Shown here: positions 1,845 to 42,666 of the stretch, one piece after another | Position numbering within the stretch: the first letter of the stretch is position 1 | Layout: the number at the start of each line of letters is the position of its first letter | Assembly: GCA_023512435.1 (NCBI GenBank) | Contig: JAILZP010000005.1 | Location: 1 to 64,000 of the forward strand | Length of the DNA: 64,000 nucleotides | Direction of reading: 5' to 3' | DNA from: Peptococcaceae bacterium | GTDB taxonomy: Bacteria; Bacillota; Desulfotomaculia; Desulfotomaculales; Desulfocucumaceae | Notes under the pieces: generated by a model | Database searches by the model: none | Seen by the model: the letters and a program-made list of their open reading frames with translations, nothing else | What the model was told of the DNA's origin: nothing | Translations under genes and position numbers: made by a program

Positions 1845-2458
1845 CCAAATAGTTAAATAATCAGTGATGCAGTATCCTAGTCGGGCGTCCCTTTACGAAG
1901 GCGGGGCTAAAAATCCGCCAAGGGCACATCGATGAAGTTCCTGGTGCTGGCTTTCGACGCCATCGGGGGCTGGTGCTGGGAGTTAAGGATGCAGGGCTAA
2001 ATACAAAGGCATGTATGACGTCCCTGCTTCCGTGGAGACCCGGCTTGCAGGCCGAAAAGAAGCTTACAACCGGGGTGTGAACCTGCATGTGGTAGACGCT
2101 GCGTGCAGTGTAGCCCGCCTTGAAGTGGCTGCGGGGAATGAAGCGTCCTTCCGGCTTCCGGAGACAAGCCGCTTCTGAAACCGCAGGCTGCAAAAGAGGC
2201 TAGTAAAGGGATTTACCGTCAAGGAAAACTTCTAGGCTGTCCATCAATAGGATGGGGCAGTCCGGGGATTGCAGTGCGGACTCAGTGGCAATCCGGTCCC
2301 GGGCCCGCGCCCGGAGGGGTTTTAAAGGGAAACCGCCCGCGCGGCAACGGCGGGTAACCTGCTGGGAAAACCTACCGGACCTAAGCCGCAACATTTACCC
2401 GGACCTGCTATCACTGGGCCACTCTTAAGCAACCCTGCAAAGGGTTGCTTAGTTTTTT
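1845..2458 (+). ncRNA. Predicted large structured noncoding RNA, about 610 nt
   Basis: No convincing gene lies here, and the stretch ends in a strong terminator. I see many nested helices. 1872-1878 pairs with 1986-1992 (one G-U). 1889-1893 pairs with 1920-1924, enclosing 1900-1904 with 1915-1919. 2083-2089 pairs with 2102-2108. 2129-2134 pairs with 2181-2186, enclosing 2140-2145 with 2170-2175. 2241-2245 pairs with 2251-2255. 2266-2272 pairs perfectly with 2288-2294. 2333-2337 pairs with 2349-2353. A matching promoter (1809-1837) and terminator (2427-2458) bound it. The size and ornate fold recall OLE RNA, known from anaerobic Firmicutes, but no OLE-associated membrane protein gene is in the window and I cannot recall the OLE consensus well enough to match it. 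No group II intron domain V, tmRNA tag or RNase P core was recognised. Confidence 0.7.
2427..2458 (+). terminator. Rho-independent terminator of the structured RNA
   Basis: Perfect 9-bp stem (2427-2435 with 2442-2450), a 6-nt loop, then AG and seven T residues. It separates the RNA from the HTH gene downstream. Confidence 0.92.
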
Positions 2459-2564
2459 TGAGCGCCGGCTTTTACCGCCGGCGGAAACCGGAAATAACTT
2501 GTAATATCGGGTGGCAGCTGGTAAAATAACCATGAGCACAATCTTGTGCACAAAGGAGAGGCTT

Positions 2565-3223: not shown

Positions 3224-5866
3224 ATGCACAACTTTACCGAGTATGTCAACCCCCACCTGGGCAAGCTCCTGGAACTGGTCCGCATGGACAAGGTTTTCAC
3301 CCGCGGGGAAGGACACTATCTGTACGACGCCGGGGGCAACCGCTACCTGGATTTCATCGCGGCGTACGGCGCCCTGCCCTTCGGCTTCAATCCCCCGGAG
3401 ATCTGGGAGGCCCTGGAGGAAGTCCGCGCCGGCGCCCTGCCCAGCTTCATCCAGCCTTCGGCCCTGGAGGCCGCCGGTGAACTGGCCCGGCGGCTGGTTG
3501 AACTGGCGCCGGGCAGCCTCAGGTACGTGACCTTCACCAACAGCGGTGCCGAGGCCGTGGAGGCGGCCATCAAGATGGCCCGGGCGGCCACCGGCAGGAT
3601 GGGCATCCTGAGCGCCGCCAACAGCTTCCACGGCAAAACCCTCGGGGCGCTGTCGGCCACCGGCCGGGAATACTACCAGGCGCCCTTCGGCGCCCCGGTG
3701 CCGGGCTTCAAGTCCATTCCTTACGGCGACCTGGCTTCCCTGGAGGAGGAACTGGAGGCCAACGGGCCGGATTACGCCGCCTTCATAGTGGAGCCCATCC
3801 AGGGTGAAGGCGGCATCGTGGTGCCTCCCCCCGGCTACCTGCCGGGAGCGATGGAATTATGCCGCCGGCACGGGGTTCTGTTTATAGTGGACGAAATCCA
3901 GACCGGCCTGGGCCGCACCGGCAAACTATTCGCCTGCGAGGAGGAGGGCCTGGCACCCGACCTGCTGCTGCTGGCCAAGGCCCTGGGAGGGGGACTGTTC
4001 CCCATCGGGGCCTGCCTGAGCACCGCCGAAGCTTACACCAGGGAATTCGGGGACCGCCACTCGTCCACATTCGCCGCCAACACCCTGGGCTGCCGGGTGG
4101 GATTAAAGGTGCTGGACATCCTTACCAGGGACGGCCGGGCCCTTATCCGCCAGGTGCGCGACAACGGCGAATTCCTGCGCCGGGAACTGGCCGGGCTGCA
4201 GCGGCGCTTCCCAAGGGTGCTTAAATCGGTGCGGGGCCGGGGCTACATGCTGGGCCTGGAATTTGGAATGTCCCGGGAGGATTTTCCGGACTGCTTTTTA
4301 AGTGTCCTTTCGGAACAGGAGAGCCTGACCCCGCTGATCTCAAGCTGCCTTTTGAACATTGAGGGGCTGAGGGTGGCGCCCACCCTCAACGGCAACAGGG
4401 TGATCCGCCTTGAGCCGCCGCTCACCGTAAACCGGGAGGAATGCAGGGCGGCGCTGGGAGCCCTGGAAAATGTCCTGGCCCTGCTGGATGCCGGCAACAC
4501 CGCCGCCATCCTGCAGCCGGTACTGGACCTCGACCGGCGGCCCGCCCACCGTCCCCGGTCCGGGGCCGCAAACCACCCGTGGAACCTTCACCGGCCATCG
4601 GGGGATCGCCGGGAAGGGCGCTTTGCCTTCCTGATTCACCCCCTGGACCTGGACAATTACTACCAGTTCGACTCCAGCCTCACCGGCCTGCCCGCCGAAA
4701 AACTTCAGCAGTTGGCGGACATGGCCGCCGAGATCCTTGATCCCTTCGTCATCGGGCGTACCGTGGTGGAATCCAGGGCCGGTTACCGGGCCTACGGGGA
4801 GTTTATCACCGTACCCTACACCGCCCGGGAGATGCTTGAAATGGCCCCGGAGAAGATTCTGGAGGCGCTGGAAAAGGCCCTCGGGCTGGCGCTGGAAAGA
4901 GGAGCCCGCCTGGTGGGGCTGGGCGCCTACACCTCGGTGGTATCCCGCAGCGGCACCATGCTCCAGGGGCGGTTCCTGCCCCTGACCACCGGCAACAGCT
5001 ACACCGTGGTGGCAGGCATTGAGGCCGTCAAGCTTGCCGCCCGGAGGCTCTCCGCCGACCTGGGCCGGTCCGCGGCGGCGGTGGTGGGGGCCACCGGGTC
5101 CATCGGGAGAGCCCTGGCCATTCTCCTGGCCGAGGAGGTGCAAAGGATAATCCTGGTGGGCAGCGCCCGCCACCCCCAGGCCAGTTCCCGCCGCCTGCGC
5201 CGGGTGGGGGCCGACATCTGCCGGCACCTGGCCGGGCGGATCAAGTCCGGCTGGGTGCCGCCGCAATCAAGCCTCGGCCGGTTTTTAACCGGCATGAACC
5301 TGCCGGACCCGGATGCCCCACAGGACAACTGGCAGGCAGTGTCCGATGAACTGGAAAAAAGAGGGCTCCTGGCGGTGACCACCGACCCAGGCCAGGCCCT
5401 TCCCCAGGCCCAGGTGGTGATAACGGCCACCAGCAGCGTGGAGGATCTGATCAGCCCCGGCCTGGTGGCGCACGGTGCCATCATCTGCGACATCTCCAGG
5501 CCGCCCAATGTCCGCCCTGCCCTGCGGAAGCTGCGGCCGGACGTGCTGGTCATCGACGGCGGGATAGTGGCGGTGCCCGGGCGGCCCTCCCTGGGATGGA
5601 ACTTCGGCTTTGAGCCGGGGCTGGCCTACGCCTGCATGGCCGAGACCATGATGCTGGCCCTGGAGCACCACTATACCGACATGAGCCTGGGCTCCCACCT
5701 GTCCCTGGAGAACATGATCTACCTGCGGCAGCTGGCCGAAAAACACGGGTTTGAACTGGCCCAGCTGCGCAGCTTTGACCGTCCCCTGAGCCAGGAGGAA
5801 TGGGACCAAGTGGTGGAGGCCCGGTCCGGGAAGGCCTCCCCCCTCAGGCGCACGTCCGGAAGTTAA
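3224..5866 (+). CDS. Class III aminotransferase fused to acyl-ACP-reductase-like dehydrogenase domain
   Basis: 880 residues. Residues 1 to about 425 are a class III (ornithine/4-aminobutyrate type) PLP aminotransferase. It has FIVDEIQTGLGRTG, and the PLP lysine is Lys252 in LLAKALGGGLFP. After a Pro/Arg-rich linker (about 425-465), residues 470-870 resemble the cyanobacterial long-chain acyl-ACP reductase family (COG5322). They carry GLGAYTSVVS, TTGNSYTV, a Rossmann motif VVGATGSIGRA and a YACMAETMM segment. There Cys804 aligns with the catalytic cysteine of acyl-ACP reductase. AAGGAG precedes the ATG. The two activities could pass an aldehyde or an amino/keto product between sites. The substrate is unknown. 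Confidence 0.85.
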   Translation: MHNFTEYVNPHLGKLLELVRMDKVFTRGEGHYLYDAGGNRYLDFIAAYGALPFGFNPPEIWEALEEVRAGALPSFIQPSALEAAGELARRLVELAPGSLRYVTFTNSGAEAVEAAIKMARAATGRMGILSAANSFHGKTLGALSATGREYYQAPFGAPVPGFKSIPYGDLASLEEELEANGPDYAAFIVEPIQGEGGIVVPPPGYLPGAMELCRRHGVLFIVDEIQTGLGRTGKLFACEEEGLAPDLLLLAKALGGGLFPIGACLSTAEAYTREFGDRHSSTFAANTLGCRVGLKVLDILTRDGRALIRQVRDNGEFLRRELAGLQRRFPRVLKSVRGRGYMLGLEFGMSREDFPDCFLSVLSEQESLTPLISSCLLNIEGLRVAPTLNGNRVIRLEPPLTVNREECRAALGALENVLALLDAGNTAAILQPVLDLDRRPAHRPRSGAANHPWNLHRPSGDRREGRFAFLIHPLDLDNYYQFDSSLTGLPAEKLQQLADMAAEILDPFVIGRTVVESRAGYRAYGEFITVPYTAREMLEMAPEKILEALEKALGLALERGARLVGLGAYTSVVSRSGTMLQGRFLPLTTGNSYTVVAGIEAVKLAARRLSADLGRSAAAVVGATGSIGRALAILLAEEVQRIILVGSARHPQASSRRLRRVGADICRHLAGRIKSGWVPPQSSLGRFLTGMNLPDPDAPQDNWQAVSDELEKRGLLAVTTDPGQALPQAQVVITATSSVEDLISPGLVAHGAIICDISRPPNVRPALRKLRPDVLVIDGGIVAVPGRPSLGWNFGFEPGLAYACMAETMMLALEHHYTDMSLGSHLSLENMIYLRQLAEKHGFELAQLRSFDRPLSQEEWDQVVEARSGKASPLRRTSGS

Positions 5867-5888: not shown

Positions 5889-5908
5889 GGAATCCAGAAT
5901 CCAGAATG
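5889..5908. repeat. Heptamer tandem repeat, TTCTGGA family (reverse orientation)
   Basis: GGAATCCAGAATCCAGAATG, the complement of the TTCTGGA family. It lies just after the aminotransferase fusion gene. Confidence 0.75.
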
Positions 5909-9071: not shown

Positions 9072-9101
9072 CAAAAAAAAGCCGCCCCCGCAAAGGGACG
9101 G
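9072..9101 (-). terminator. T-box terminator 2 (proximal to the operon)
   Basis: A GC-rich hairpin (9082-9088 with 9095-9101) followed on the minus strand by eight T residues, 36 bp before the first gene. It competes with the second T-box core at 9111-9125. Confidence 0.85.
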
Positions 9102-9192
9102 AATTTTTTTCCGCGGTACCACCCTGATTGGTTTCAACGAAACCCACTCCACGGGGCACAGGCTGCGCTTCTCCCGCCGGCAAGGCCTGCCC

Positions 9193-9230
9193 AAAAATAA
9201 AAGCCGCTAATCCCATAGGGACGAACGGCT
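9193..9230 (-). terminator. T-box terminator 1 (distal)
   Basis: Arms 9202-9206 and 9226-9230 with an inner GGGA/TCCC helix (9211-9214 with 9218-9221), then TTTATTTTT on the minus strand. It overlaps the conserved side of the first T-box core. Confidence 0.75.
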
Positions 9231-9497
9231 CGCGGTACCACCCTACTTGGCTTTTCAGGCCCGGCTCTTTCCAAGGTACGGGAGCTTTGCTCCTTATACC
9301 CCTTCCCTGTAACGGGGGAAACCCGTTTCGGCCTACTTGCCGCTTTATACAAAGGGGTTCAGCCTCAAAGTTCGGGGGAGAACTTCAGACGGTCCTGCCC
9401 TGAAAGCGCTTCCAGTCGCCGGCGCCTTCTCCCTGGAGGGTGGTCTTCCGACCTACTTTTCCCCGTCATCACTTTTACAAGTATTCCGTTACTGGTT

Positions 9498-16705: not shown

Positions 16706-16775
16706 CGCAGGCATGAAAACACCCGGATTCCGGGCTTTTCTCATTCTGGATTCCGGATTCTGGATTCCGACAAAA
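16706..16775 (+). repeat. Long dispersed repeat unit containing TTCTGGA heptamers, copy A
   Basis: The conserved block GCATGAAAACACC, then a short variable part, TTTTCTCATTCTGGATTC, extra heptamers (16742-16771) and a CGACA end. A second copy lies at 25635-25706 in the opposite orientation and differs mainly in heptamer number. It fills the gap between the radical SAM and NYN genes. Confidence 0.8.
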
Positions 16776-25634: not shown

Positions 25635-25706
25635 ACTGTCGGAATCCAGAATCCAGAAGCCAGAATCCAGAATGAGAAAACCCAGAATGAGGTGTTTTCA
25701 TGCGTC
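25635..25706 (-). repeat. Long dispersed repeat unit containing TTCTGGA heptamers, copy B
   Basis: Reverse-orientation copy of the unit at 16706-16775. It carries the same GCATGAAAACACC head, TTTTCTCATTCTGGATTC body and CGACA end, with one more heptamer (array 25641-25675). It lies just upstream of the PBP2 start. Confidence 0.8.
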
Positions 25707-37229: not shown

Positions 37230-37265
37230 TCGGAATCCAGAAGACAGAAGCCGGAATCCAGAATT
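37230..37265. repeat. Heptamer tandem repeat, TTCTGGA family (reverse)
   Basis: Degenerate copies of GGAATCCAGAAG type preceded by CCGTC, upstream of cobS, next to the direct-repeat element at 37312. Confidence 0.7.
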
Positions 37266-41752: not shown

Positions 41753-42361
41753 CTATTCTGGATTCTGGATTCCGGATTCTGGATTCCCCATGCATGCTGC
41801 CGCCAAAGATTTAATCTCCACCGCCAGGCCGGCCACCACCAGGTAAACTTCGTCCGCCGCCGAGGCCAGGTACCTGTTGGCTCGCCCCGAAATATCGCGG
41901 AAAACCCGTCCGATGGGGTAAGGCGGGACCAGCCCAAGGCCCACCTCGTTGGAGACCGCCAGCACGCTGGCCCTGGAGTTGACCGCCGCCTCAGACAGTT
42001 CGGCCACCCTGGAAAGGATGTAGTCTTCCTTTTCCCGGCTCGAAGCTCCGGGGCGGGGCAACCGGTCATCCAGGAGAAGGTTGGACATCCAGACGGTCAG
42101 ACAGTCAATCAATATCACTCCCGGCTGCTGCCCGATCTCCGCCACCTTACGGGGCACGTCCACCGTCTCTTCCACCGTGACCCACCCGGCCGGCCTTCTT
42201 TCCCTGTGGGCGGCCACCCGGCGGGACATCTCGCCGTCCCCGGGGGACAGGGTGGCTATGTAAGTGACCGGCCCTTCCATCCCGGCCGCCGTCCGCTCGG
42301 CGAATTCACTTTTGCCGCTCCGGGCCCCGCCCAGAATCAGCACAAACTTGCCGTTCTCCAT
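41753..42361 (-). CDS. cobU: Bifunctional adenosylcobinamide kinase/guanylyltransferase
   Basis: 202 residues. LILGGARSGKSEFAERTA is the P-loop and VILIDCLTVWMSNLL the conserved core. It phosphorylates adenosylcobinamide and adds GMP. It is the first gene after the cobalamin riboswitch. Its last residues (GNPESGIQNPE) and stop codon are made by the heptamer repeat at 41754-41789. Confidence 0.94.
   Translation of the reverse strand: MENGKFVLILGGARSGKSEFAERTAAGMEGPVTYIATLSPGDGEMSRRVAAHRERRPAGWVTVEETVDVPRKVAEIGQQPGVILIDCLTVWMSNLLLDDRLPRPGASSREKEDYILSRVAELSEAAVNSRASVLAVSNEVGLGLVPPYPIGRVFRDISGRANRYLASAADEVYLVVAGLAVEIKSLAAACMGNPESGIQNPE
41754..41789. repeat. Heptamer tandem repeat, TTCTGGA family, inside cobU 3' end
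   Basis: Five units of ATTCTGG/ATTCCGG type. In the minus frame they encode the final eleven or so residues and the stop of CobU. Confidence 0.85.
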
Positions 42362-42427: not shown

Positions 42428-42460
42428 GCAAAAGCCCTCTTTGCTCGCGAAGAGGCTTTC
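42428..42460 (-). terminator. Hairpin of cobalamin riboswitch expression platform
   Basis: AGCCTCTT (42450-42457) pairs with AAGAGGGCT (42433-42441) with one bulge, followed by TTTT on the minus strand. It is a likely riboswitch-controlled terminator. Confidence 0.6.
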
Positions 42461-42462
42461 AT

Positions 42463-42612
42463 CCCTCCGGACAAGGTTTCCTGGCTCCCGGGTCACGGCC
42501 TTCCCCTCGCCTTCCCCCGGAGGGTGGCATAATGAAGGGGGCTCACCGGTTACAGTGGCGGAGACCGCTCAGGCATCGCACCTGATTCCCTATCTCCCGG
42601 CGGTTTTAATTC
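42463..42612 (-). promoter_or_regulatory. Cobalamin riboswitch
   Basis: On the minus strand GGGAATCAGGTGCGATGCCT, then the B12 box CCGCCACTGTAACCGG, ATGCCACCC, GAAGGCGAGGGGAAGG and GAGCCAGGAAACC occur in the canonical order of the adenosylcobalamin aptamer. It lies directly upstream of cobU and should shut off the cobalamin genes when the cofactor is plentiful. Confidence 0.95.
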
Positions 42613-42666
42613 TCGCGATGTGTTTTATGTATAACCTTCCACGCAGGGATAAAATTTCCTGCCTGT

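Follow-up and report, generated by a model that had tools for sequence, protein, structure and literature searches.

A full-length OLE RNA encoded apart from oapA in a Peptococcaceae genome belongs to a diverged, unlinked lineage

Few bacterial RNAs that lack a known biochemical function are as large as OLE; ROOL and GOLLD are likewise large structured bacterial RNAs of unknown biochemical role. OLE forms a membrane ribonucleoprotein (RNP) with OapA, OapB, OapC and bS21, Halalkalibacterium halodurans requires the RNP when exposed to cold, ethanol, Mg or carbon stress, and OLE and OapA almost always occur together (PMC11332333; PMC12054373). In the open-access papers, ole is described as lying most often beside oapA, and variants are defined by P7-P9 and P13; as described, variants 1 and 2 (TANB77 and RF39 clades; PMC11332333) have P7, P8 and P9 shortened or missing and lack the P13 tip. 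In OLE dimers seen by cryo-EM, the chains are joined by the P4 A-rich loop, by P5.1-P6.1 loop contacts and by a palindromic P9 loop (PMC12286853; PMC12265935). For Clostridium acetobutylicum OLE, the P4 A-rich loop is dimer bridge B1 and the P9 GGCC loop is bridge B3, and a GAUC palindrome was reported as a natural P9 loop substitute (PMC12286853). OapB binds the P12.2/P13 region in H. halodurans (as cited in PMC12265935). The open-access papers found do not describe a genome with two OLEs, nor this unlinked lineage, and novelty is claimed relative to that literature.

The stretch of DNA analyzed (the window) comprises 64,000 nt from a Peptococcaceae bacterium. Positions 1848-2430 (+) matched OLE RNA at full length (Rfam RF01071, 441.9 bits against a gathering cut-off of 50 bits, E 1.8e-126, model positions 1-616/616), and the span of the mature RNA was set by the model at the same coordinates. 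A sequence-only reading had proposed a free-standing structured RNA of about 610 nt at 1845-2458, with no gene between its promoter and terminator, and had offered two interpretations, an OLE-type RNA away from its customary neighbors or a different class of large RNA. The first was borne out by the Rfam match and by the lack of ispA-ole-oapA-dxs linkage described below. ORFs in the interval were short, most of them overlapped one another on the two strands, and none looked like a gene. Across the window, the only other Rfam matches were a T-box leader (9091-9478, minus strand) and a cobalamin riboswitch (42452-42616, minus strand), both above gathering score. Rfam returned no match in the window to ROOL or GOLLD, nor to group II introns or any further mobile RNA family, the origin against which the sequence-only reading had cautioned; a search of a plasmid collection also gave no match. 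One OLE copy was present in the source assembly (80 contigs, 88% complete), on contig C80. The OLE class is already known; what is unusual is the placement of the ole gene in the window. As a separate observation, heptamer repeats (GAATCCA/GAATCCG)n were dispersed through the window in both orientations (14 matches vs. 0.04 expected; 92-109, 5890-5907, 16743-16767, 25642-25673, 37233-37264 and 41755-41786), and were also seen in the spacer upstream of oapA at two further loci (L056, L060).

The matches of an OLE search and of an OapA-profile search were compared by coordinate over 86 genomes of the class, with ispA, ole, oapA and dxs named from position and published order. The usual order was ispA-ole-oapA-dxs. 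Every ordinary OLE with a determinable oapA lay within 400 bp of it (73/73), and one further ordinary OLE sat at a contig end; outside the class, oapA was found in the same short locus in 13/13 OLE loci. Five genomes were without OLE, and all five were also without OapA (G031, G040, G044, G048 and G078); as dxs was intact in G044, an assembly gap is an unlikely cause of the double absence in that genome. The exceptions to linkage were the family of the window (f1) and one genome of family f10 (G016). In the window's genome, a single OapA (E 4.9e-80) was encoded at C19:65455-66030, between ispA and dxs and on a different contig from ole, with an ispA-oapA spacer of about 150 bp. No OLE remnant was detected at E 0.1 in the old ispA-oapA site of four genomes, with no trace in that of the window's genome. 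The same split was found in G001, G002, G005, G007 and G016. Co-occurrence of OapA in the genome, a mark of OLE membership, is therefore present, and the position immediately upstream of oapA, which is frequent and not required, is absent.

On C80, ole is flanked by a tetR-type gene on one side and by an HTH gene on the other; the HTH gene precedes a gene for an 880-aa aminotransferase-containing protein, and rpmA and rplU are nearby on the opposite strand. Unlinked ole lies near rplU/rpmA within the family and elsewhere in G016. The 880-aa protein (window 3224-5866) has an N-terminal class-III aminotransferase, its C-terminal part is weakly like shikimate dehydrogenase, and its gene is retained next to unlinked OLE in several relatives. 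A 42-base signature of unlinked OLE, searched in a collection of 84,980 species, matched only this group and close MAGs; family members recovered in this way included Desulfocucumis palustris NAW-5, MAGs BRH_c4a, BRH_c4b and BICA1-7, and a Desulfovirgula-labelled MAG. A small MAG contig (SKS3.bin19) had the same OLE-HTH order, with an OLE 87% identical.

The sigma-A-like promoter that had been placed in the last tetR codons was found there (1809-1837, +), with TTTACA at 1809, a 17-nt spacer and a TG-preceded TAAAAT ending at 1837 (10/12 consensus bases). Promoter-like sites numbered 5 in the region vs. 1.7 expected, so the site taken alone says little. In 8/8 genomes of the family, a TTTACA-17/18-TANNAT element nevertheless ended 6-11 bp upstream of where the OLE model begins, despite upstream genes that differ among them; the candidate promoter of G016, in the other family, departs from this pattern. 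The strong terminator read at 2427-2458 was likewise present as a 12-pair stem (2425-2452) followed by T7, at about 2425-2459 (+), and was the strongest in the region. A stem of the GCAACCC...GGGTTGC type is kept 3' of OLE in the eight family genomes. The conserved promoter and terminator support ole as a putative free-standing transcription unit, probably transcribed singly.

In a maximum-likelihood tree of 60 OLEs, the nine unlinked OLEs (those of eight f1 genomes, D. palustris included, and of G016) were monophyletic (UFBoot 100, stem 0.46), and the position of this clade in the tree was weakly supported (34). All members of the window's family carry one OLE, unlinked, except G003 (MAG BRH_c4b; stated 100% complete, 1% contamination), which has two. 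The ordinary G003 copy (517.8 bits) is at C13 beside oapA, the unlinked copy (407.2 bits) is at C26 beside rpmA, the two are 67.5% identical, and OapA is present once; co-residence of two OLEs rests on this one MAG. A foreign contig was considered, and composition argues against it, as tetranucleotide likeness between the C13 and C26 regions was 0.80, above the likeness of either to any other region compared. In the OLE tree, the ordinary G003 copy fell outside the unlinked clade; forcing the two together was 9.8 log units worse (AU p 0.10). As the joined tree was not rejected, the data are compatible with an ole that was duplicated or relocated within the group, and the OLE tree would also allow transfer from an unsampled lineage. 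OapA proteins of G003, of G016 and of the unlinked members of the family formed one clade (support 98), so inheritance of oapA is vertical in the group.

The reading we consider probable is that this ole is functional and belongs to a diverged lineage of paralogues, which replaced the ordinary copy in most descendants and works with OapA provided in trans. Simple relocation would have a single ole leave oapA and change fast since it was no longer co-inherited, with the ordinary OLE of G003 regained by later transfer; it would account for the single unlinked OLE of the other family members, for an ispA-oapA spacer that is empty where the site is assembled, and for the different neighborhood in G016, but we regard it as improbable, because the G003 OapA groups with those of the family and G016, the like composition of C13 and C26 speaks against recent replacement of the C13 stretch, and ole alone would have to be regained precisely at the old site. 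Horizontal transfer, with an unlinked OLE from an unsampled lineage displacing the resident ordinary one, also appears unlikely: although the long stem, the weakly supported position and the separation of the unlinked clade from the ordinary G003 copy in the best tree are in keeping with it, the 42-base signature is confined to this group and close MAGs, and a sister relation to the ordinary G003 copy was not rejected.

Constraint on the unlinked RNA was assessed at 230 near-invariant alignment positions (≥96% conserved in 51 ordinary OLEs). The unlinked clade kept 217/230, and the remaining 13 were changed in at least 7 of the nine unlinked OLEs, as shared derived changes. Among pair cells of the nine, 96.6% held standard pairs. 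Double-sided changes were found at 38/168 pairs vs. 14.7 in shuffles (0/500 shuffles reached 38; slid versions gave 5-15), counts that are inflated by relatedness and for which the structure came from the same alignment. Compensatory changes in homologues, which the sequence-only reading had proposed as a check, are thus present, and the size of their excess makes decay implausible; the idea of a decayed copy was dropped on this ground and on that of the conserved promoter.

Compared with ordinary OLE (RF01071; H. halodurans, C. acetobutylicum), the window OLE shares the 616-position model, the A-rich P4 loop, the P4a hairpin, J4a/5, P12-P13 and the 3' domain, and its identity to the ordinary OLEs in the comparison does not exceed 71%; it differs in not lying beside oapA, in having its own promoter and terminator, in a shortened L5.1, a changed P6 and a missing P9 apical GGCC loop. 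The P4 hairpin GGCGGGGCUAAAAAUCCGCC (1900-1919, +), with its conserved A-rich loop, is kept in 9/9 unlinked OLEs. The long P4a/P5.1 hairpin (1938-1981, +) has a GCCA(U) loop, 2 nt shorter than the ordinary GCCCAG, and across the clade this change reads GCCCAG to GCCA plus U or A. Further shared changes are the shortening of P6 and its 3' internal strand (the P6 internal loop is near the proposed bS21 site), CGA to CUA in J5/6, a purine added 3' of CCUUGA in most members, and loss of the GGUGAC loop of the P12 stem. In the P9 region (2129-2186, +), the palindromic GGCC apical loop is missing and a hairpin of other sequence stands instead. Most unlinked OLEs are without the palindromic P9 kissing loop, and the loss is not uniform, since the sister genome G001 retains a 7-nt loop with GAUC; nor is a short P9 by itself unique to the lineage, as several OLEs outside the class have one too. 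The P12.2/P13 region (GGGAAACCGCC...GGCAACGG; 2308-2360, +), corresponding to the OapB-binding region of H. halodurans, is intact by sequence. Judged by sequence, the predicted dimer contacts of the P4 A-rich loop and the GCC and GGC of P5.1/P6.1 are kept, and the GGCC P9 loop is absent. The shortened P9 of most unlinked OLEs is shared with OLE variant 1 (PMC11332333), but unlike variants 1 and 2 as described, unlinked OLEs have P7 and P8 and a P13 OapB-binding region that is intact by sequence, so that P9 alone is shortened, in most members, and they do not belong to either variant.

The nested helices quoted in the sequence-only reading were confirmed as perfect complements in all five cases (2129-2134/2181-2186, 2140-2145/2170-2175, 1889-1893/1920-1924, 1900-1904/1915-1919 and 2266-2272/2288-2294), and the last of these has no counterpart among the Rfam consensus helices. 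That pair (GGAUUGC/GCAAUCC) lies in a highly conserved stretch, part of which is paired otherwise in the consensus, and may be an alternative pairing. The unlinked OLEs of G003 and G006 (L035 6893-7488, L038 8066-8652) contain an extra insertion of ~40 nt after P6, which in G003 holds a GGGCUAAAAUACCC hairpin resembling the A-rich P4 hairpin of OLE.

Wherever the dxs locus of an unlinked genome was complete, an intact OapA was found. G004 and G006 gave no OapA match; a contig end truncates dxs in G004, G006 has no dxs, and OLE without OapA in these two was set aside as a matter of assembly gaps around dxs. No CNNM protein (Mg exporter MpfA) was found in unlinked genomes, and replacement by MpfA was discarded for want of contrast, since most of the class is also without CNNM. 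The protein bS21 was present in 18/18 genomes tested, with or without OLE, and is uninformative. Matches to the L7Ae family of OapC (PF01248) occurred in all tested genomes, a search that does not separate OapC from its paralogue, and a KOW search for OapB in the window's own genome gave two matches over cut-off, of L24 and NusG lengths. Functional divergence with proteins other than OapA, or a decaying copy, is a very doubtful account of the 13 changed near-invariant positions, the shortened L5.1 and P6 internal loops, the P9 kissing loop lost in most members and the missing OapA of G004 and G006, given the compensatory changes and conserved promoter, the uninformative dxs regions of those two genomes, and the intact OapA wherever the dxs locus is complete.

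Under the preferred reading of a diverged paralogous lineage with OapA in trans, ole would have been duplicated or relocated before the window's family split from a second family of the order, and the unlinked gene, now distant from oapA, would have gained a promoter and a terminator of its own. Of the lineages sampled, MAG BRH_c4b alone would have kept both genes, the others having later lost the ordinary copy between ispA and oapA. For the RNA, the most likely fold is the OLE dimer core, with the A-rich P4 loops and the GCC/GGC of the P5.1 and P6.1 loops kept and, in most members, the P9 arch missing. The RNA would then join OapA encoded by the oapA left between ispA and dxs, and the resulting membrane OLE RNP may act, in the same cellular role, in stress and metal/energy adaptation. 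Speaking against the same role, the altered L5.1, P6 and P9 could reflect a function that has changed. Assembly of the same RNP in trans is the most likely mechanism we infer, because OapA is kept in every unlinked genome whose dxs locus is complete.

More tentatively, OLE RNAs may duplicate and specialize, giving a second class that is regulated separately, has a modified dimer interface, coexists with ordinary OLE in at least one organism and shares one OapA; if so, a single cell may contain two kinds of OLE RNP, or mixed dimers. MAG BRH_c4b provides, in one assembly, a naturally occurring example of a bacterium with two OLE RNAs. A lineage with ole off oapA is a natural experiment that can show which parts of the RNA are needed when OapA is the same, and it offers a test of assembly in trans and of the proposed dimer bridges.
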